Origin: Turneriella parva DSM 21527
GTDB lineage: Bacteria > Spirochaetota > Leptospiria > Turneriellales > Turneriellaceae
Assembly (NCBI RefSeq): GCF_000266885.1
Contig: NC_018020.1
Span: 3,100,001 to 3,164,000 of the forward strand
DNA: 64,000 nucleotides
Direction of reading: 5' to 3'
Under the pieces are notes generated by a model. The model had not been told where the DNA came from. It was given only the letters and a program-made list of their open reading frames with translations, and did not search any database. How positions within the stretch are numbered: position 1 is the stretch's first letter; every line of letters begins with the position of its first letter. The position numbers and the translations under genes are program-made. Of the stretch, positions 13,508-57,089 are shown piece by piece.

Positions 13508-16084
13508 ATGGCAGGCGAAAATATGACAATCAAGACGCGCGCGGTATACCAGAGTGCCGTGGCGAAAGCGCAAGAGCTGGGGCACGCTGACATCACGCCC
13601 GAGCACTTTATGGCGGCACTGTTTGATGAGGCCGACGGTCTACCCGTGCAGGTGTTGCACCGGCTGAACATCTCGCCCGAAAAGGCGACAGAGCTCTTTG
13701 AGAGTTATCTCGCTCGCCTGCCGCGTGCGCAGGGCAATTTTGAACCGGGGCAAAATCTCTCGGGCGATGCACGCAAGTTCATGCAGCTCGCCGAGAAAGA
13801 GATGTCTGGCCTTGGCGACCAGTACCTGTCACTCGAGCACCTGCTGCTCGCCTATACAAATGGTAATTTTGCGCTGAAGAAAGAACTCTTTGCGCTCGGG
13901 CTCGACCGCGCCCGGCTCGCCAGTGTGCTCAAAGAGCTGCGTGGCAGCCAGAAGGCCGATTCAGACAACCCTGAAGCCAAGTTCAACGCGCTGCAGAAAT
14001 ATGGCAAAAACCTGAACGAACTTGCGCGCAGCGGCAAACTCGACCCGGTGATCGGGCGGGACGAAGAGATTCGCCGCACGATTCAGATTCTATCACGCCG
14101 CAACAAAAATAATCCGCTGCTGATCGGCGAACCGGGCACGGGCAAAACGGCCATTGTCGAGGGGCTTGCCGGCCGCATCGTTTCAGGTGATGTGCCGGAT
14201 ATCTTACGCGACAAGACCGTGGTCACGCTCGACATGGGTTCGCTCATCGCCGGGGCAAAATACCGTGGCGAATTCGAAGAGAGGCTGAAGGCGGTACTCG
14301 ATGAGGTGCGCACCAACCAGGATAAGTTGATTCTGTTTATCGATGAAATACACACTGTCGTCGGCGCGGGCGCGACCGAAGGTTCGCTCGACGCGGCGAA
14401 CATGCTGAAGCCGGCGCTCGCGCGCGGCGAAATTCACCTGATCGGCGCGACGACCCTCAAAGAGTACCAGAAACACATCGAGAAAGATTCTGCGCTCGAG
14501 CGCAGGTTTCAGAGCGTTTACGTGAGCGAACCGTCTGTTGAAGATGCCGTGACAATTTTGCGAGGCCTACGCGACCGTTATGAGGTTCACCACGGCATTC
14601 GCATCACCGACGCAGCGATCGTGTCAGCGGCGACGCTTTCGAACCGCTATATTGCTGACCGCTTTTTACCCGATAAGGCGATCGACCTGATCGATGAGGC
14701 TTGCGCCAAACTCAAGATTGAGCGCAATTCAATGCCGCAAGAGCTCGACGACCTCAATCGCCGCATCATTGCCCTGACGATCGAAGAAACGGCTCTGAAC
14801 CGTGAGAATGACACGCTCAGCGTCGAGCGGCTGAACGCCGTACGCAAAGAGCTGAGCGAGCTGCGCGAAGAATTTCAGGCGATGAAGGTGAAACTCGACA
14901 CCGAAAAAAAAGACCTGGGTCTTTCGACAGAAATTAAGGCAGAGATCGAAAAACTCAAAACCGAAGAGGCGGCAGCAGAGCGCAAAGGTGACTTGAACCG
15001 CGTTGCCGAATTGCGCTACGGCAAAATTCCTGAGTTACAGAAAAAGCTCGAAGCGGCGATTCAGCAGGTGCGGGGTAAAAGTCCCGAGCTACGCCTGCTC
15101 AAAGAAGAAGTGACTGAAGAAGACATTGCAGAAATAGTCTCCCGCTGGACAGGCATACCTGTTGCGAAGATGCTCACCTCTGAGAAAACAAAACTCCTCA
15201 ATATCGAGACCGCGCTGCATGGCCGTGTTGTCGGTCAGGAGACTGCGGTCGAAGCGATTGCTAATGCCATTCGCCGCAACCGGGCAGGTATCGCCGACGA
15301 AGATAAACCCATCGGCAGCTTCTTGTTTTTGGGACCCACGGGGGTCGGTAAGACCGAAACCGCAAAAGCTCTGGCTGAGTATCTGTTCGATGACGCCAAG
15401 GCGCTGGTTCGCATCGACATGAGCGAATATATGGAGAAACACTCGGTTGCGAAGCTGATCGGTTCGCCTCCAGGGTATATAGGCTATGACGAAGGCGGGC
15501 AGCTGACTGAAAAGGTGCGTCGCCGCCCTTACAGCGTCATCTTGTTCGACGAGATCGAGAAGGCCCACCCCGACGTGTTTAATCTGTTTCTGCAGATTCT
15601 TGACGAAGGCCGGCTGACCGACGCGAAAGGCCGCTTAGTCAACTTTCGCAATACGATTCTGATTATGACGTCGAATCTGGGTTCAGAACATTTGGCGAAT
15701 GCAGAGCTCAACAGCGAAGAGCAAGAAGTACGCGTGCTCGACACCGTGCGCGGCTTCTTCAGGCCAGAGTTTTTGAACCGCATCGACGGTGTAATACAGT
15801 TTCACCGTCTCGGAGCAAAGCACCTCGAAAGTATCGCGGGCCTACAGATCGACCATGTCGTCGGCAAGATTCGCGAGCGTGGTCTTGAGCTAGAAGTCGG
15901 GCCCGATGTGCGTAAGCTCATTATCGAACATGGGTTTGATGAAGAATATGGTGCCCGCCCGATGAAACGCGCCATTGAGAACCTGCTGCTGAACCCGCTG
16001 GCCAAAGCATTGCTCGAGGGCAAGGCTGAACAGGGCAAGAAGATTGTCGCGAAGCGGGTGCTCGACACCGTCGAGTTTGCGTAG
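13508..16084 (+). CDS. clpB: ATP-dependent chaperone ClpB
   Basis: An 858-residue Hsp100 disaggregase that works with DnaK to solubilise aggregates. Domains: Clp N-terminal repeats (about 5-145), first AAA+ domain with GEPGTGKT at 207-214 and [13 protein letters not shown], the middle coiled-coil domain (about 410-530, rich in Glu and Lys), and the second AAA+ domain with GPTGVGKT at 609-616 and the [14 protein letters not shown] pore motif, then the ClpB D2-small domain. Length and the presence of the middle domain fit ClpB and not ClpA or ClpC. ATG 13508 follows GGGGGA; a second ATG six codons in is possible. A CIRCE element implies HrcA control. Confidence 0.97.
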
Positions 16085-16110
16085 GGTAGGTTCAAACCTA
16101 CCCTTACGCA
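16078..16110. terminator. Hairpin between convergent clpB and capA-like genes
   Basis: A 9-bp perfect stem (GGGTAGGTT, two bases, AACCTACCC at 16084-16103) is extended by TGCGTA/TACGCA pairing across a one-base bulge. It overlaps the clpB stop codon. It can fold on either strand between two converging genes, which fits a bidirectional terminator, but no T tract follows. Confidence 0.5.
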
Positions 16111-16121
16111 GGCGGTGAGCA

Positions 16122-17153
16122 TCACTTTACAGTGATGTTACCGTCGGCGCCAATCTCGAGCCGCGTATGCGGAAAATCTTTTTGCGTAAGACTGCGCATC
16201 AGCTCAATCGTTCTGCCCGAAGCGTCGTAGCGCGGCAGTGATTTTTCAGGCATGTTCATCGGGTGAATTTTTCCTGAGAGAAATTTACCTGTAGAGTCGA
16301 GATTCACGTCGAGCACGAGCGTGAGTCCTGTTTTGCCCCGCGACGACAGCGCGCCGTAGCCAATAAAATTGCCGAGTGAATAGACGATAAGCCGGCTCTT
16401 GTAGAGTTCGAGTGCACGTACAACGTGTGGCCCGTGACCGAGAATCAGGTCGGCGCCGGCGTCGATGGCTGCGTGCGCGAAAAGGGGCAGGTTGCCGCGG
16501 TTTTCACCGAAAAAAGTTTCGGTCTCTTTTCTGGTATGTAAGAATTTTTCCCCTTCGCCGCCCCAGTGGCACGAGATGACGACGATTTCAGCCTGCTCGC
16601 GCGCCCGGCTGACAAGCGCCCGCATTTCGGCAAGGTCGTGAATGTAGTTGTGCTTGCGAAAATAGCTGAAGGCGATGAAGGCCACACGTTTACCCCCGGC
16701 TTTGCTGTAGCCTATCTGGCCTTTGCGGCCGACGGCGAGAATACCCGCGTCTTTCAGATTCTGCATCGTGTCGTTAAAGCCGCGTTCGCCGAAGTCGCCT
16801 GAATGGTTGTTGGCTGTGCTGAGCACGCCGAAGCCGGCCCGCTTCAGCACCTTCGCTGTCGACGGTGGCGTGCGAAATGCGAAGACGTGTTTGCTCGAAG
16901 TGTTCTTGCTGGTTTTCGGGTAGTCAGTCAGTGTGCTTTCAAAATTACCGAACAGAATATCGGCGCCCGAAAGGTATTGCTGAATCGGCGCGAAAATATC
17001 TTCGTACGGATCTGCCGGCACACGCTTTTCAGGGTAGAGAGTTCCCGGCACGATGTCACCGACTGCCTTGATGGTGATGATGGATTCAGATCTTTTCGGC
17101 GCGGCATGCCCGGCCAGTGCGGCCAGCATTATGAGGATTACTATTTTTTTCAT
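16122..17153 (-). CDS. CapA/PgsA-family secreted metallophosphoesterase-like protein
   Basis: A 343-residue protein with a signal peptide (about 1-17, MKKIVILIMLAALAGHA) and the PGA_cap (CapA) fold. Visible family motifs are AVGDIVPG (34-41), GNFEST, LSTANNHSGDFGERGF, SCHWGGEGE and LGHGPHVV, which together supply the Asp, Asn and His metal ligands of calcineurin-like phosphoesterases. CapA proteins act in capsule or poly-gamma-glutamate production and export, but substrates in spirochaetes are unknown. It is the last gene of a four-gene minus operon; its ATG overlaps the stop of the SpsG-like gene (ATGA). That context suggests a role in surface glycan handling. Confidence 0.85.
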   Translation of the reverse strand: MKKIVILIMLAALAGHAAPKRSESIITIKAVGDIVPGTLYPEKRVPADPYEDIFAPIQQYLSGADILFGNFESTLTDYPKTSKNTSSKHVFAFRTPPSTAKVLKRAGFGVLSTANNHSGDFGERGFNDTMQNLKDAGILAVGRKGQIGYSKAGGKRVAFIAFSYFRKHNYIHDLAEMRALVSRAREQAEIVVISCHWGGEGEKFLHTRKETETFFGENRGNLPLFAHAAIDAGADLILGHGPHVVRALELYKSRLIVYSLGNFIGYGALSSRGKTGLTLVLDVNLDSTGKFLSGKIHPMNMPEKSLPRYDASGRTIELMRSLTQKDFPHTRLEIGADGNITVK

Positions 17154-17869
17154 GGCTTTCCCTGATTTTTTCTGTGCACGCCTTGCAAGAGGTCGGCTAC
17201 TCTTGTGAGCCCGAGGCCATCAAGTGCCTGCAACAGTGCATTGTTCTCGTTTAGCCGGCGCACGAGGTCTTCTGCGAGCTGCATGTGGTAGTCACTTATG
17301 GGGTAAAGCTGAACGTGTTTGCCTGCATAGAGTGCTTCAAAAAGCGCCTGGCCAAAATAGAGTGCAGGCCTCGAAGACAGTTGCATCTGCGTGAGATAAT
17401 CTGCTGGCGAAAGTACGCCCGATGAGGCTTTGAAATCCGCATTCGCCTCTGCTTCTGCCTTTGTGCGGCATAGCGTGATTCGTGCTTTGGCAACTTCTGA
17501 CGGCATGGCGGTGAGCTGCCGCGGTAAAATTACATGCCGCAGTGCTTTTTCGTATTCACCTGCGGTCATCGACATATGAGGCAGCGCATCGATCACGATG
17601 TCAGCCTGTGCGCGCGCCGCGCCGCGATTATCGATCGCCACGCTGACGGCGGTTGTTTGGCCTGCGATAGTATTGAAGTCTGTGTCGCGGCGGTCGAGCA
17701 CGACGACGCCCACTTCAAGTGGCAGCCTGAGCACCTCGCCCGGCTGAGCGACAGAGTGCAGGGTGGTCAATTGCCTTCGCTTCAGCTCAAGCGCGAGGTT
17801 GTGCATGCGCACCTGATGGCCATGACCGAAGTCTTTGCTGTCGCCCGTGATAAGTAAGGTCGCTTTCAT
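17150..17869 (-). CDS. SpsG/PseG-like nucleotide-sugar hydrolase or glycosyltransferase fold protein
   Basis: A 239-residue cytosolic protein. The N terminus LLITGDSKDFGHGHQVRMHNLALEL resembles the glycine/histidine-rich start of PseG and SpsG, where GxGHxxR binds the nucleotide-sugar phosphate. The C-terminal third has an SRPALYFGQALFEALYAGKHVQLYPISDYH segment that looks like the GT-B nucleotide-binding half (aromatic sugar-protein genes usually show 'G...E.l..G.P.i..p...nQ'). The match is partial and the protein is about 50-100 residues shorter than typical PseG, so the enzyme activity is only suggested. It overlaps both neighbours by 4 bp (Omp85-like upstream, capA-like downstream). Confidence 0.5.
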   Translation of the reverse strand: MKATLLITGDSKDFGHGHQVRMHNLALELKRRQLTTLHSVAQPGEVLRLPLEVGVVVLDRRDTDFNTIAGQTTAVSVAIDNRGAARAQADIVIDALPHMSMTAGEYEKALRHVILPRQLTAMPSEVAKARITLCRTKAEAEANADFKASSGVLSPADYLTQMQLSSRPALYFGQALFEALYAGKHVQLYPISDYHMQLAEDLVRRLNENNALLQALDGLGLTRVADLLQGVHRKNQGKP

Positions 17870-19134
17870 TGCAGGTTATAGCCGAAGAAGAAGCTGATTT
17901 GCAGCTGGCGCGATACCATGTCGCGTGCCACATCGACCCCGAGCGCGGGTATCGTCATCTGGCTGAGGTACATACGCACACCGCCCCCCGGGCCCCAGAA
18001 GTAGGTTGCATTCTCCCGGTCGCGCGCAAATGCACCGGCGTCGACAAAGGCGATCGCGGCAAAAGTTACCCAAGGAAACTCGAACAACGCGTACTGGTAA
18101 TTGACTGCCGCAACGGTAAAGCGGTCGGCGGGTATTAAGAGTGCAGGTAAAGTGCGTGTGCCCTGCCAGCCACCGAGGCGCTGCTCGAGCACAGCGGGAT
18201 ATTCAGACCATTGGAATGAGTAAAGCAGTGACAGAAATTGTTTTCTGAATGGGCGGTAATGCCAGGCAGTGGCCGACGAGATTACGTGCAGCTTTTCACC
18301 TTGAGCAGCGACACCCTGTTCGAGATCGAGCGTCGATTCAAAACCCTGCTGAAAATATCCCTGCGGCACTATATCTGAATATCGGAACCTCGCTCCAAAA
18401 TTTAGATTCATTGCCGAGTTGACGGCAGGCGAATCGATAACCTGCGCAGAGCGCAGGCCCGCGAGCACCCCCAGAAACAGGTGGTGGCGAATTTCATAGA
18501 GGGTCGCACTTTGAAAATCGTGGCGCATCAGCGTGTAGCTGCGTGTCACAACTCCGGTGGTTGTGGCATCTTCAAGAAACACCCGCCCGGTCAGATAGCG
18601 CATCGTCGTCGAAAAACGGCTGTAGCCAATGTGCGGGTCGGTATACCCGGCGAGCGCCTGCCACCCGCGGTTCGAGATCAGCCCACCGATGACGCCCCCT
18701 TTGTTCTGGCCGAAAAGATTCGATTCGACGAGAAACGCGCCGCCAATTTCGGTGTCGCGGTATTTGACGTATACCGGCACGGGGTAAAGGCTCCACTTCT
18801 CTTTGACGAGAATCTGCAAATGGCATTCTGCCCGGCAGAGACCCCCGTCAGAAATTTCAGTGAGAGTTACCTGCTGCTCAGCGAAGATGCTGAGTCGCGC
18901 GACGCTGTCGCGGATTGAGTCGGTATCTATATTTTCAGCGCTGTCGCCTTCTTTTGCCGGTACGTACTGCAGCACAACCCGCATGTCAGTACGGTTCAGG
19001 CCTGAAACAGAGATCTTTTTTAGAGTACGGGGTGAATCCCCCTGGGGCGAAAGCGGCTTTACCCCGGCGCTAAGGGCGCAGCAGAATACCAGCGCACAGG
19101 CGAGCTTTGCGGGCAGAGCGCAACCGCACGTCAC
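17866..19134 (-). CDS. Small Omp85/BamA-like outer-membrane protein
   Basis: About 422 residues from GTG at 19134, which overlaps the upstream TGA as GTGA. A longer form from 19191 would overlap the neighbour by 60 bp and hide the signal peptide, so 19134 is chosen. After the signal (about 8-25, LPAKLACALVFCCALSAG) comes a single POTRA-like domain (about 35-115, with LKKISVSGLNRTDMRVVLQYV and ending HLQILVKEKWSLYPVP). The remainder alternates amphipathic strands up to VSRQLQISFFFGYNLQ, as in D15/bacterial surface antigen barrels. It has far fewer POTRA domains than BamA (five) or TamA (three). It probably assembles or exports a specific envelope component made with its operon partners. Confidence 0.72.
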   Translation of the reverse strand: MTCGCALPAKLACALVFCCALSAGVKPLSPQGDSPRTLKKISVSGLNRTDMRVVLQYVPAKEGDSAENIDTDSIRDSVARLSIFAEQQVTLTEISDGGLCRAECHLQILVKEKWSLYPVPVYVKYRDTEIGGAFLVESNLFGQNKGGVIGGLISNRGWQALAGYTDPHIGYSRFSTTMRYLTGRVFLEDATTTGVVTRSYTLMRHDFQSATLYEIRHHLFLGVLAGLRSAQVIDSPAVNSAMNLNFGARFRYSDIVPQGYFQQGFESTLDLEQGVAAQGEKLHVISSATAWHYRPFRKQFLSLLYSFQWSEYPAVLEQRLGGWQGTRTLPALLIPADRFTVAAVNYQYALFEFPWVTFAAIAFVDAGAFARDRENATYFWGPGGGVRMYLSQMTIPALGVDVARDMVSRQLQISFFFGYNLQ

Positions 19135-20180
19135 GTGTGGTGGTCCAGCGCCTTGCGCAACCGGCGCAGAAAATATTCCCGGTTCAGCCATTCGACGCCC
19201 GAGTGAATACTTTCGCGCTCGGGTCGGAGTTCGCGGTAACTGCGCACCAGATAAAGAATTTCTTCGGCCGAGCCGGTACGCAGTTCATGGCCGAGATCGG
19301 TGTCGTGCAGAAATTCATGCATGCCCTGCGATGGGTGTGCGATGACCGGTACGCCTGCTTTGAGTGCAGCCAGACCCAGATGATCGAGTTCGCGTGTTTC
19401 ACCGAGAATCAGCGCTTTCGCGCCGCCCAGATAATATGCCTTCTCTGAATTCGAAATTTTACCCGTATAGAAAATGTTGTCGGGTTTCAGTTCTTTCAAC
19501 AGTTTGTCGGGTTTTTCTTCTGCCATAATCACGAGTTTGTCGGTCACGCACGAAAACAGGTGCACGAGCGCAGGCAAATCGGTGGCTTCGGTCGCCAGAA
19601 AATATTCGGCTTCGGCGCTTGTGTCCGGGAAAAACAGTTCACCGTCGACGAGCGGATAAGCGAGTGGCACTTTCTGCCGCGTCAATGCGGCGAGTGTCGC
19701 GCGCAAAGCGTAGTTGGCGGCGATTGTCAGGTCGACCCCCATGCTGTATTCGAGGTCGATTTCTTGCAGCCGCAACAGTTCGGCGGTTCTCGGGGCGTTC
19801 AGCGCCTCAACGTCGACGCGCCACAGATAGGGTAAGAGGTCGTGCTGGTAGGCGATGATTCGCGTCGTCGCCGATTTTTCACGGCGCAGGTGTTTCAGGT
19901 AACCGCGCGTGTTTACGAAGACGAGGTCAAAATCATCAATGGGTATCAGTGCTTCAGCGGCGATCAGCTCTTCGAGGTTCTCGAATGCCTTGCGCGCGAA
20001 GCGCGAGGCGTAAAATTCGACATGGCGGTCTCGTAGCACGGCAGGCACGCTGCGCTCGAGATTCTTGAGAAAACCTACCTGCGCCTGCGGAAAAAGTTCG
20101 AGCAACGCAAAAAAAGACGGATTGAGCAGGTCGTTCTCTGCGTACCAATCTTGCAACAATAACACCCGCTTTTCAGGCAC
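19131..20180 (-). CDS. GT-B fold glycosyltransferase (GT4-like)
   Basis: A 349-residue cytosolic protein starting at GTG. The C-terminal half has the GT4 pattern: a nucleotide-sugar region DNIFYTGKISNSEKAYYLGGAKALILGETRELDHLGLAALKAGVPVIAHPSQG (about 233-285), containing the E-x7-E-like segment that contacts the donor, and a final RNL-type helix WLNREYFLRRLRKAL. The N-terminal half (acceptor side) has YxxDxxPYLWRVD and no DxD motif, as expected for GT-B enzymes. Donor and acceptor cannot be read. It is the first gene of the operon with the Omp85-like barrel, SpsG-like protein and CapA-like protein, suggesting an envelope-glycan role. No lipid-linked oligosaccharide genes are nearby. Confidence 0.75.
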   Translation of the reverse strand: MPEKRVLLLQDWYAENDLLNPSFFALLELFPQAQVGFLKNLERSVPAVLRDRHVEFYASRFARKAFENLEELIAAEALIPIDDFDLVFVNTRGYLKHLRREKSATTRIIAYQHDLLPYLWRVDVEALNAPRTAELLRLQEIDLEYSMGVDLTIAANYALRATLAALTRQKVPLAYPLVDGELFFPDTSAEAEYFLATEATDLPALVHLFSCVTDKLVIMAEEKPDKLLKELKPDNIFYTGKISNSEKAYYLGGAKALILGETRELDHLGLAALKAGVPVIAHPSQGMHEFLHDTDLGHELRTGSAEEILYLVRSYRELRPERESIHSGVEWLNREYFLRRLRKALDHHT

Positions 20181-20320
20181 AGAGGTATTTGCTCTGCGGC
20201 GAAGCGGCGCCGTAAAGCGAATACGCAGCCTGGGCTTTCAAAAAAGTAGTCGCTGTGACTCAGTTTCTGTCTATGAGCGCACACACGGCCTGCCTTCAGG
20301 CAGCAACCAGAGGAGACAAA

Positions 20321-21466
20321 ATGGCAAACGAATATGCAGATTACAAACCCGGTTTAGATGGCGTCATCGCCTGTATCACCAAACTCTCATTACTCGACGA
20401 AGCAAAAGAGCAGATCGTCGTGCGCGGCTACGACCTGATCGAGCTGATTCAGAAAACCTCTTATATCAAGGTTGCCTACCTGCTGATTTACAACAAGTTT
20501 CCGACCGATGCCGAGGCGAAGGCCTTTGAGCAGAAGCTCATGGATCAGGCTGAAATTCCGAACGAGATGTACGAAATTTTCAAACTTCTGCCCAAGAAGA
20601 CGCAGGCGATGGATGCTCTGCGCACCGGCATTTCGATTCTTGGTGGCTATGAAGAGCACGACTTTCTCATGGACACTTCTACCAAATCGAACGAAGAGAA
20701 GGCTCTCAAAATTCTGGCGAAAGCACCGACGATCGCGGTCAATAGCTACCGCGCGATCATGGGCCTGCCATTTGTCAAACCTGACAAGTCTATGGGTTAT
20801 TCAGAGAACTTCGTGCACATGATTAAAGGTTCGAAGCCGACTGCGGTTGAGACCGACACGCTCGACAAGATTCTCACCACGTATATTGAACACGAAATGC
20901 CGAATTCAACATTCGCTGTGCGCGTTGTCAGTTCGACGCTCTCTGATATATACGGTTCTTGTGCCAGTGCGGTTGCTTCGCTCAAGGGCCCCCTTCACGG
21001 TGGTGCCAATGAAGCGGCGATGCAGATGTTTCTCGAAGTCAACAAGACAGGCGGGCCTGCAACCGCTGAGAGCTACATCATGGGCAAACTCACGCGCAAA
21101 GACAAGATCATGGGCTTTGGCCACCGCGTTTACATGAAGAAATACGACCCGCGCGCATTTCTCATGAAAGACTATATCCCCAAGCTTGTCGACCAGCGCC
21201 CAGACGGCAAAGACCTCTATTCGATCTACCAGACTATTGAGAAAACGATGGCGCGTGAAAAAGGACTCTACCCGAACGCCGATTATCCGATCGCGCTTCT
21301 CTATTACCTCATCAACGTGCCCATCGACCTTTACACACCGATCTTTCTTTGCTCGCGCCTCGCAGGTCTCGTGTCGCACCACATCGAGCAGCACGAAAAC
21401 AACCGTCTGTTTCGCCCACGCGTCATCTACGAGGGAGCACGCGACCTTCATCCCCCAGAAAAATGA
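20321..21466 (+). CDS. gltA: Citrate synthase
   Basis: A 381-residue citrate synthase that condenses acetyl-CoA with oxaloacetate. The ATG at 20321 is chosen over an in-frame upstream ATG at 20255 because AGAGGAGA lies directly before it and the protein then begins as the family does. Catalytic features are GPLHGGANE (first His), MGFGHRVYMKKYDPRA (second His and Arg) and NADYPIALLYYLINVP (Asp region). Length fits the short type II-like form. The 140-bp gap upstream divides it from the divergent glycosyltransferase operon, and a short CTGCC/GGCAG hairpin sits just before the ribosome-binding site. A 2-methylcitrate synthase cannot be excluded by sequence alone. Confidence 0.92.
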   Translation: MANEYADYKPGLDGVIACITKLSLLDEAKEQIVVRGYDLIELIQKTSYIKVAYLLIYNKFPTDAEAKAFEQKLMDQAEIPNEMYEIFKLLPKKTQAMDALRTGISILGGYEEHDFLMDTSTKSNEEKALKILAKAPTIAVNSYRAIMGLPFVKPDKSMGYSENFVHMIKGSKPTAVETDTLDKILTTYIEHEMPNSTFAVRVVSSTLSDIYGSCASAVASLKGPLHGGANEAAMQMFLEVNKTGGPATAESYIMGKLTRKDKIMGFGHRVYMKKYDPRAFLMKDYIPKLVDQRPDGKDLYSIYQTIEKTMAREKGLYPNADYPIALLYYLINVPIDLYTPIFLCSRLAGLVSHHIEQHENNRLFRPRVIYEGARDLHPPEK

Positions 21467-53913: not shown

Positions 53914-54726
53914 TTAGTCGCCGGTGCCCGGCGGTAATTTTGCCTCTGCGGCGAGCTCTACGGAGCGCCGGGTGGCCGCGGTAACGGCTTCCATCACTGC
54001 ATTCGGGAAACCATGCCGGTGCAGCGATTTGAGCGCGACTGCTGTCGTGCCACCTGGAGAAGTTACATCGTGAATCAGGTTCTGCGGCGCCTCATGCGAT
54101 TGCCGTGCGAGCTCAGCAGAGCCCAATACTGTCTGCAGCGCCAGCGCGCGGCTGTCGGCGCGGCTTAAACCGAGCAGCACACCCGCGTCTTCGAGGTTCT
54201 GCAAGAAAAGGTAAACATATGCGGGGCCTGAACCTGAAAGGCCTGTCACCGCATGCAGAAGCTTTTCTTGCTCGAGGTAGATAGCGGTGCCGGTGTTCTC
54301 AAAAATTTCGCGCGCGAGCGCAAGGTCTTCACCTGCGCAGAAACGGTTGCCGGTAAATGCCGTAATGCCGCGGCGAATGAGTAACGGAGTATTGGGCATT
54401 GCGCGCACGGTAGGCCCATTCTCACCGCGGGCGGCGTCGATTGTCTTCAGCGCAACCCCGGCTGCGATGCTGATCACGAGGCGGTGGTCTGTGACGGCCG
54501 TGGCTACCTCAGCAACCTGCGCAGGCTTCGTGGCGATAATGAGGGTTTCTGTTTTTTCAACCAGTGCCTCGAGGCTCTCTGCCAGCGAGATCTTCTTCAG
54601 CAGTGATGGCCGCAGCGCTGAAGCAGCTTCGTTACTCTTCTCATAGCCTGAGATTTCGTATTTTGCCGAAAGCGCCTGCGCGAGCGCAGAACCCATTTTT
54701 CCGAGACCGACGATTCCGATTTTCAT
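53914..54726 (-). CDS. proC: Pyrroline-5-carboxylate reductase
   Basis: A 270-residue proline-synthesis enzyme reducing pyrroline-5-carboxylate with NAD(P)H. It has the Rossmann start IGIVGLGKMGSALAQALSA, RAMPNTPLLIRRGITAF, and the C-terminal dimer signature GLSGSGPAYVYLFLQNLEDAG with DVTSPGGTTAVALKSL. The start codon overlaps the AGCS-Psd stop (ATGA at 54723-54726), so it is translationally coupled to that fusion. Confidence 0.96.
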   Translation of the reverse strand: MKIGIVGLGKMGSALAQALSAKYEISGYEKSNEAASALRPSLLKKISLAESLEALVEKTETLIIATKPAQVAEVATAVTDHRLVISIAAGVALKTIDAARGENGPTVRAMPNTPLLIRRGITAFTGNRFCAGEDLALAREIFENTGTAIYLEQEKLLHAVTGLSGSGPAYVYLFLQNLEDAGVLLGLSRADSRALALQTVLGSAELARQSHEAPQNLIHDVTSPGGTTAVALKSLHRHGFPNAVMEAVTAATRRSVELAAEAKLPPGTGD

Positions 54727-57089
54727 TTGCGACCTGCCGATTTTCTGTTGGTTTTTGAGGTGTTAGCCTGTTTCGCCTGTTTCGCGGGCGCATTCTTGCC
54801 CGTGAAGAGAGCGATAGGCTGACCGAAGAGCAATTTCTGCTTCTCTTCAAAATCGAGCAGGTCAACGGAGTCGCGCTCAAAAAGCAGCATCACCGTTGAA
54901 CCCATTTCAAACCGGCCGAGTTCAGCGCCTTTGCGAATATAAATCTCTTCGTCGTACATGTGCTCTTTCGCGAGGCGAATCCAGCGGTTGGTAGCGATAT
55001 TGGGGTCATAGGTCACGCGAATTTTGCCAACCGACGTGGCGCCGACTTTGATCACCGCCACGAGCCCATGGTCGCTTTGAATATACGTGATGAGGCGTTC
55101 GTTCTTTGAGAAAAGCTGATTGATCGAATTCACCGCCAGGTTATTGACGGGAAAAAGTTTTCCCGGCTGGTAATAATAGCCCAGAATTCGGCCCTCAACC
55201 GGCGAATGGATGCGGTGGTAGTCTTGCGGTGAAAGGTAGATCGTCATGTAATGGCCGCCGAGAAACTGCTTGTAGAAGCGGTTGTTGCCCAAGAGGTTCT
55301 GCAGCGAAGATTCCATGCCCTTTGACTGCAAAAGCTGGCCTTTTTCGAGCGAGCCCGCGATGAGCAGCCTGCCATCTACTGGCGAAATGATGACGCTCTC
55401 TTTCTGGTCGATAAGGCGTGAGCCGTTCTTGAGGGCCCGCGTGAAGAATTTGTTCAGCGATTCGTAATCAGAAATTTCGAGCGCCGCCTCTTGAATATTA
55501 ATTTTGTAGATGCGCGCAAACGCGAGCACGATCGGTGTCATCATAAAGCGCGGCAGCCTCAGGCCTGCCAGAAATCCGTTGAGCTTCGACACCATATTCT
55601 TTGGCAGCAGCGTCAGCAGCAGAACATAAAACCGCACCGCCAAATCATGCTTATGCGGAAACTGCGAGAAGTATTCGAGTGCAAGACGCCGCACCTCGGC
55701 AAGTTTACTCAGCAGCGCCGTCAGATATATGACGGCAAGCAGCGAAAACAGCACCGAAGAGATCATCACCTTGTCGCCGAGGTTCAAGAACTGCTGCGAC
55801 AGAGCGAACGCCAGTACGAAGACGATGCGCGCAGGCCAGATGAGCATGCGGGCGCCGAGCGAAATCAGCAGGCGGTCGAGAATGATAATCCAGACTGCCG
55901 ACGCAATTGCGCCGAGCGCAAATGCTGAAAGCGCGATGATGAGAAAACCGCCGCGGCCGAGTGAACCTGAAAAAATATGCGCGAGTGAAAATTGCACCTG
56001 GCGAATGATTTCGCTCGCGGCAGCCGGGGCAGGGGCGAGCAGGGCTTTGACGCCACCCAGGGCGGCGTCGGCACCTTTCACTTCGGGTAATCCCGTAGCA
56101 TAGGCGAGGCACAGCAGCGGTATAAAAATCGTCGTATAAAAGAGCGCCGTCGACATCGACACGAGACCCTGCTTCACCGCGTAATCATTCACCGACGCGG
56201 CGGTGACCGAACCAGAAATGCCGGTGGCCTCTTCGGGGGCGACAATGCCGGCAAACGCGGCACACTTAAAGACGAGCAGCGAGGTGACGATGCCTGCGGT
56301 CAGACTCTTGAAGTTCAGCGCCTGCGAAAATGCCTGCGACATGATGCCCGACGCTTTTTGCGAATTCTGCGCGATGATATAGATGGCGAGTATAATTAAG
56401 AGGCTGGTGACAACAGGCGAAACGACTGCAGCAACCTTGCCGACGCGCTTTAGACTGCCGACTGCCATGATGAGACCCGTGATGACAATCAGCGTCGGCG
56501 CCCATCTGTTCGAAAAAATATTCTCGCCGAGTTTCATAGGTGCGGTCGTCTTTTCAGGGTTCGCATAGAATTGCTGCCACAGGTCGGCCTGCGCCAGTGC
56601 GCCCCAGAGAAGCACGACTGCGACTGCGAGCAGTGCATAGGCCTTACCGCCGTTCACGCCCCAAAAAGTTGTTCTGATGATATCGCGCGCGCCGCCGAGC
56701 CAGACGTAGTCGGTCTTTTCGCGGTAGCTGACCGCGAGCGTGCCGGTTGCGAAGCGCAGCGAGGCGAGCAAAATGCCAAAAAGCGCGACCCAGACGAGCG
56801 AAGCCGCACCGCCCCAGAGTACAATCACCGGAATTCCCAACAGAATGGCGGCATTTGCCTGAATGCTGCCCGCGAGAAACATCGCCCTGCGGTTATTGAT
56901 TTCGCCCGCGCGCTGTGCCTTCGTGAGGGTCGTGCCTTCGTCTTCTTTGCCGAGCCCGGCAAGCGCAATGCGAAAGCCGTAAATGACATAGCGCAGCGGC
57001 AAAAACCGCAAATACAGCGTGTATGCGGCAGAGGTGAAGATAAGCAGAATGAGCACCGCAAGCGAGAGATAGGCTTCAAGGCTGACCAT
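54723..57089 (-). CDS. AGCS-family transporter fused to phosphatidylserine decarboxylase
   Basis: A 788-residue single frame with two parts. Residues 1-470 are a multi-pass membrane domain (about ten helices) related to Na+:alanine/glycine symporters (AGCS): the FLAGSIQANAAILLG and LAVSYREKTDYVWLGGARDI stretches align in place and order, and APEEATGISGSVTAAS takes the place of the family's NEAGLGSAP signature. Residues 485-765 are a full proenzyme-type Psd: VDG with Asp572, DYHRIH with His625 and His628, and the EMGST self-cleavage site at 728-732 (cut expected between Gly730 and Ser731 to give the pyruvoyl group). The basic tail (766-788) is lineage-specific. It starts the proC-thiL-trmL-mfd operon. 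The Psd part is sure; the transport activity of the other part is uncertain. Confidence 0.85.
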   Translation of the reverse strand: MVSLEAYLSLAVLILLIFTSAAYTLYLRFLPLRYVIYGFRIALAGLGKEDEGTTLTKAQRAGEINNRRAMFLAGSIQANAAILLGIPVIVLWGGAASLVWVALFGILLASLRFATGTLAVSYREKTDYVWLGGARDIIRTTFWGVNGGKAYALLAVAVVLLWGALAQADLWQQFYANPEKTTAPMKLGENIFSNRWAPTLIVITGLIMAVGSLKRVGKVAAVVSPVVTSLLIILAIYIIAQNSQKASGIMSQAFSQALNFKSLTAGIVTSLLVFKCAAFAGIVAPEEATGISGSVTAASVNDYAVKQGLVSMSTALFYTTIFIPLLCLAYATGLPEVKGADAALGGVKALLAPAPAAASEIIRQVQFSLAHIFSGSLGRGGFLIIALSAFALGAIASAVWIIILDRLLISLGARMLIWPARIVFVLAFALSQQFLNLGDKVMISSVLFSLLAVIYLTALLSKLAEVRRLALEYFSQFPHKHDLAVRFYVLLLTLLPKNMVSKLNGFLAGLRLPRFMMTPIVLAFARIYKINIQEAALEISDYESLNKFFTRALKNGSRLIDQKESVIISPVDGRLLIAGSLEKGQLLQSKGMESSLQNLLGNNRFYKQFLGGHYMTIYLSPQDYHRIHSPVEGRILGYYYQPGKLFPVNNLAVNSINQLFSKNERLITYIQSDHGLVAVIKVGATSVGKIRVTYDPNIATNRWIRLAKEHMYDEEIYIRKGAELGRFEMGSTVMLLFERDSVDLLDFEEKQKLLFGQPIALFTGKNAPAKQAKQANTSKTNRKSAGRK

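Follow-up and report, generated by a model that had tools for sequence, protein, structure and literature searches.

Whether the four adjoining genes of Turneriella parva that encode a glycosyltransferase (GT)-like protein, a small Omp85-type barrel, a SpsG/PseG-like protein and a CapA-like enzyme constitute one compact export route for a surface glycan, as proposed in the initial annotation of this DNA, or a set of genes with more than one allegiance is the question raised by this locus.

Layout of the operon

The window, the whole analysed stretch of 64,000 nucleotides, covers bases 3100001-3164000 of the 4,384,015-base chromosome (whole genome 4,409,302 bases). The four minus-strand open reading frames (ORFs) annotated initially are all present, with the following features:

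19131..20180, minus strand: GT-like ORF, GT-B type, 349 aa, Glycos_transf_1 in the C-terminal half
19131..19134, minus strand: GT/barrel junction, GTGA overlap, barrel start codon uncertain
17866..19134, minus strand: Omp85 barrel ORF, 422 aa counted from GTG; predicted one POTRA and 16 strands, L6 RTLP
17866..17869, minus strand: barrel/SpsG junction, ATGA overlap, 4 bases also in both barrel-bearing relatives
17150..17869, minus strand: short SpsG/PseG-like ORF, 239 aa, N-terminal GxGHxxR
17150..17153, minus strand: SpsG/CapA junction, ATGA overlap
16122..17153, minus strand: CapA-like (PGA_cap) metallo-enzyme ORF, 343 aa, signal-peptide-like N-terminus
16078..16110, unstranded: strong hairpin, candidate terminator between the convergent clpB and operon ends, no T run

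The operon-like unit is borne out by four same-strand genes end to end, flanked by the convergent clpB (13508-16084) and a divergent citrate synthase gene (20255-21466). Of the three 4-bp overlaps that had been claimed to join them, both ATGA overlaps are certain, while the GTGA at 19131-19134 hinges on the GTG start of the barrel gene. The longest barrel ORF begins at ATG 19191 and would overlap the GT-like gene by 61 bases; the GTG start is plausible rather than proven, as a signal-peptide-like N-terminus (predicted helix 6-24) results from it. The hairpin, which was detected by folding (-23.7 kcal/mol for 16078-16125, z -5.0; stem of about 14 pairs) and overlooked by the inverted-repeat finder, has a 20-base core with no second site in the window within 3 mismatches. 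A sigma-70 promoter scan was uninformative, with 1 site seen versus 2.1 expected by shuffling.

Tight 4-base overlaps are ordinary in the DNA of the window, as in its greedy ORF set they join 9 of 37 same-strand neighbour pairs, 3 of the 9 lying inside the operon, and 6 of the 34 pairs outside it. The initial statement that no flippase, polymerase or ABC exporter is located nearby is consistent with the 20 window ORFs scanned outside the operon. Elsewhere in the window (54723-57089), a single 788-aa ORF fuses a sodium:alanine symporter domain to a phosphatidylserine decarboxylase.

The outer membrane barrel

On the predicted structure, the barrel is a genuine one-POTRA Omp85 protein closest to BamA, in agreement with the one-POTRA Omp85-like barrel first suggested. 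The AlphaFold2 model (pLDDT 88.2, pTM 0.80; an earlier model from a 3-row alignment was poor, pLDDT 32) displays a single beta-alpha-alpha-beta-beta POTRA at residues 37-112 followed by 16 strands spanning 116 to 418, and its fold matches are BamA (Z 31.0, rmsd 3.0, 367 aligned), TamA (Z 25.8) and FhaC (Z 22.0). An ordinary TamA or patatin-linked protein was rejected on the basis of the one POTRA, the lack of a patatin match and BamA as the nearest fold. As a lone query the protein gives weak POTRA and BamA matches; the profile of 23 barrel relatives (alignment A2) matches BamA chains from their last POTRA into the early part of the barrel (best E 8e-22), and PF07244 passes its cut-off in one relative (L153).

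The L6 loop signature of the Omp85 superfamily is RG[FYW], which at the aligned place is found in 0 of the 23 members of the barrel family. The family possesses RTLP in 10 of 23 and a related x-L/V-P in 21 of 23 members, while T. parva's own BamA reads LRGW. The barrel is thus assigned to the superfamily by fold and POTRA, which fit, and not by the L6 signature. The operon protein has its POTRA and its 16-strand barrel in common with BamA and with BamA-like proteins carrying 1-3 POTRAs (Heinz and Lithgow 2014, PMC4104836); it differs in L6, and the operon contains no BAM accessory gene. BBJ25-type Omp85 proteins, according to a passage of PMC13078400, are known in Borrelia, Brachyspira and Treponema and reported absent from Leptospira; BBJ25 has 346 residues, is without POTRA and adjoins an ABC transporter. 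By description, both are small spirochaete Omp85 proteins encoded in a multi-gene cluster, while the operon barrel is set apart by its POTRA and by the lack of an exporter beside it.

Besides BamA, T. parva encodes three more Omp85-domain ORFs (L131:5829-6953, L132:6177-7670 and L133:5324-8305; 374, 497 and 993 aa).

Distribution of the operon genes

The barrel is not integral to the operon. The GT, spsG and capA genes are contiguous in five of the seven genomes of the genus (G000, G001, G002, G005 and G006, T. parva included); the barrel gene lies between GT and spsG in G000, G001 and G002 and is missing from the operon in G005 and G006. Gene order is therefore conserved within the genus for a three-gene set, but not for the four-gene set that had been put forward, the barrel missing in two of five. 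In the sister-genus genome (G007), GT adjoins SpsG without barrel and the capA relative is on a different contig. Two further genomes of the genus are incomplete (82-83%): G004 has an SpsG fragment and then DAHP synthase instead of capA, while in G003 none of the searches with GT, SpsG or the barrel gave a match. The SpsG proteins of the genomes with trio order are just 42-50% identical to the window SpsG, and the four operon genes show four different distributions.

Of 41 genomes searched with the single protein, 3 gave a match to the barrel, each a member of Turneriella and T. parva itself among them, and the other 38 gave none; a barrel-query scan of the genome contigs likewise recovered just the two genus relatives. 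A barrel alignment (A1) matched 68 of 392 genomes across the phylum, and over half of these matches are partial. At 20 loci outside the genus, chosen for strong matches and with 10 neighbours domain-scanned in one round and 6 in another, the distant spirochaete copies reside mostly in contexts without glycan genes. Close same-strand neighbours include RND pumps (L141, L144) and ABC ATPases (L152, L158); beside the barrel are also found a methylthiotransferase-like radical SAM protein (L145 by Pfam; L143, L146, L148 and L151 by clustering), OmpA/Ig giants (L153; L154 by clustering) and, as single cases, a methyltransferase (L149) and a peroxiredoxin (L156). A DegT-type sugar aminotransferase gene is close by on the same strand at one of the 20 loci (L159). 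On these gene contexts the barrel was rejected as a member of a glycan-export family, and the claim of a compact export route built around it is not supported, given its absence from G005 and G006, its presence in only 3 of 41 genomes and its other neighbours elsewhere.

The sugar-related proteins

The initial call of a glycosyltransferase stands as far as the Pfam domain is concerned, with Glycos_transf_1 barely above its cut-off (27.5 versus 26.4 bits), but not with respect to the catalytic residues. GT4 glycosyltransferases are characterized by an E-x7-E pair, which in the window protein is replaced by R and A, the second Glu being retained solely in two distant rows of 7 aligned GT-like proteins; without this pair, the protein may not be a GT4-type catalyst. 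A distant homologue in another genome (G009, L090:6786-7889) has two flagellin genes as neighbours at a distance of about 4 kb (L090:11914-13896).

The CapA-like call is confirmed, the protein having the signal-peptide-like N-terminus of a secreted enzyme and PF09587 covered over the whole domain (182 bits versus a cut-off of 27, E 1.9e-53, Pfam); it shares this domain with CapA / PGA_cap proteins (profile match E 3e-22) including chain 8gqb, which is named a poly-gamma-glutamate synthesis protein and corresponds to MslH, in line with an NCBIfam match. In contrast to these systems, the operon has no capB/capC-type or lasso-peptide gene, and no partner gene of poly-gamma-glutamate synthesis was found within it. 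As capA relatives with 46-50% identity sit in different gene contexts in five other genomes, the gene has no fixed tie to the SpsG sugar pathway.

The SpsG/PseG-type fold of the third protein is supported only by profile comparison. The window protein has no Pfam and no NCBIfam match, and solved structures gave 0 matches whether the single SpsG sequence or its alignment served as query. Compared as profiles, the family matches PseG (hhalign, 97%, E 4e-11), while PseG TIGR03590 (curated cut-off 153.55) gives no match in the window protein or in its own genome and a best E of 0.052 among 17 SpsG-like relatives. The N-terminal GxGHxxR, which in PseG carries the catalytic His, is invariant in 17 of 17 SpsG-like and 6 of 6 PseG-type rows, and further columns are invariant among the SpsG-like sequences; the C-terminal half is shortened and the PseG ENQ stretch differs. 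SpsG of Bacillus subtilis belongs to the sps legionaminic acid pathway, as indicated in a passage of PMC7439481; the operon protein shares with PseG and this SpsG the GxGHxxR and the profile similarity, and the partnership with SpsF is paralleled in other spirochaetes, but it falls below every curated cut-off, has the shorter C-terminal half and is accompanied by no spsC/D/E in the operon.

The spsG-like gene has better-conserved partners elsewhere, a radical SAM/SPASM (rSAM) gene and spsF. Matches to SpsG-like were obtained in 21 of 41 genomes (5 of them weak), to rSAM in 38 and to spsF in 35. Outside the genus, spsG often comes after surA, the gene for a radical SAM/SPASM protein of about 530 aa and that for an SpsF-like cytidylyltransferase, or else forms a fusion with SpsF. 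Of the 34 genomes having both rSAM and spsF, 26 carry the two no more than 1500 bases apart (26 of 29 genomes outside the genus and 0 of 5 inside). Adjoining or fused spsF and spsG occur in 11 of the 14 genomes from outside the genus and in 0 of the 5 within it. In T. parva, surA-rSAM at about 616 kb (L129) and spsF at about 3.89 Mb (L130) are both away from the operon. The operon spsG is a displaced member of the spirochaete radical-SAM/SPASM - spsF - spsG module. Literature on LIC12922/SurA, SpsG in spirochetes or with SPASM, TP0562/SpsF/flagellin and bactofilin/NeuB contained no report that we recognised as dealing with this module.

Flagellin as a possible acceptor

In three Treponema-like loci (L191, L192 and L197; PF04620 matches), rSAM and a fused spsF are located a few genes from flaA. 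The two fused SpsF proteins scanned (L191 and L197) end in a methyltransferase domain, and in L191 an ATP-grasp gene lies in between. These loci were picked via PseG-type matches and are therefore examples, not a count; flaA was identified in 0 of 6 other loci outside Leptospirales chosen in like manner (including L193, L194, L195 and L198). Flagellin glycans of Treponema denticola are reported to be essential for filament assembly and motility (passage of PMC9481697), and Leptospira biflexa has probable flagellin glycans proposed to join core and sheath (passage of PMC13144727); the sugar-making genes are unnamed in these passages. That the module genes provide such a glycan is what we infer from the gene neighbourhoods.

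Searches for NeuB gave matches in 40 of the 41 genomes. At another T. parva locus (L181:4464-7170, C1 ~440.5-443.2 kb), a bactofilin gene is followed by a third gene for a LysM/M23 peptidase and a short NeuB-family gene (311 aa). The order bactofilin, third gene, NeuB recurs in L182, L184, L185, L186, L188, L189, L190 and L196, and not in L183; the arrangement looks like a sugar-acid synthase-like gene placed in a cell-shape operon.

A bolder and rather unlikely extension of these observations would be a shared, undescribed spirochaete CMP-sugar pathway, comprising rSAM/SPASM, SpsF, the SpsG-like protein and perhaps the bactofilin-following NeuB, that makes the sugar on the periplasmic flagellins. 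Turneriella would have scattered this pathway over three or four loci with spsG wired to the GT-like and CapA-like genes, the counterpart being rSAM and spsF-methyltransferase near flaA in Treponema-like genomes.

Weighing the explanations

The displaced pathway gene and a barrel that occurs in some relatives only suggest a reshuffled glycosylation locus rather than a glycan exporter; a dedicated glycan export route is not supported. The account that we tentatively prefer, at a little below an even chance, is a lineage-specific operon of the genus Turneriella that combines a sugar-modification trio with the Omp85 barrel as an optional, independent passenger. The core would be made up of the GT-like, SpsG-like and CapA-like proteins. 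The SpsG-like protein would perform the ancestral step of the spirochaete radical-SAM/SPASM - SpsF - SpsG pathway, presumably nucleotide-sugar hydrolysis or an equivalent step toward a CMP-activated acid sugar. Cytosolic handling of the sugar would fall to the GT-like protein, and the CapA-like enzyme, once exported, would work in the periplasm on the product or its acceptor. The barrel, as a member of a spirochaete single-POTRA family, was probably gained rather than lost and would share the transcription of the operon and work alone in the outer membrane in the insertion or passage of proteins. The trio most likely serves a sugar-modification step, best read as a CMP-sugar pathway step for glycosylation, possibly of flagellin.

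A single pathway of all four proteins, with the barrel carrying or inserting a glycan or glycoprotein that the GT-like and SpsG-like proteins make and the CapA-like enzyme trims, would agree with the common direction and with an overlap at each of the three junctions. Moreover, the three genomes with the barrel all retain the 4-base barrel/SpsG overlap, which would also fit a true coupling of the barrel. This reading is nevertheless distinctly unlikely, with an operon that is otherwise the same but barrel-less in G005 and G006, a barrel absent from 38 of 41 genomes, a barrel family elsewhere mostly without glycan partners and known Omp85 proteins that act on proteins, not on glycans.

Unlikely, too, is a trio without any connection to glycans, in which degenerate SpsG-like and GT-like proteins would serve as scaffolds or regulators and the CapA-like enzyme would act on peptidoglycan or another polymer: the missing E-x7-E, the lack of a curated family match for the SpsG-like protein and the capA relatives isolated from the pathway in five other genomes point in this direction, but GxGHxxR and other columns are invariant across 17 SpsG-like sequences and spsG remains with spsF in most other genomes having both. 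A fortuitous cluster of genes with separate histories, sharing a promoter by drift and overlapping by ordinary packing, would be in line with the frequency of 4-base overlaps in the window and with four genes showing four distributions; it is improbable as a trio order kept in five of seven genus genomes despite 42-50% SpsG identity is beyond the expectation for drift.

The rSAM-SpsF-SpsG module, kept in most Leptospirales-type genomes examined, would provide testable candidates for flagellin-sugar synthesis, while the one-POTRA barrel family with its altered L6 is a natural test of L6 loop function.
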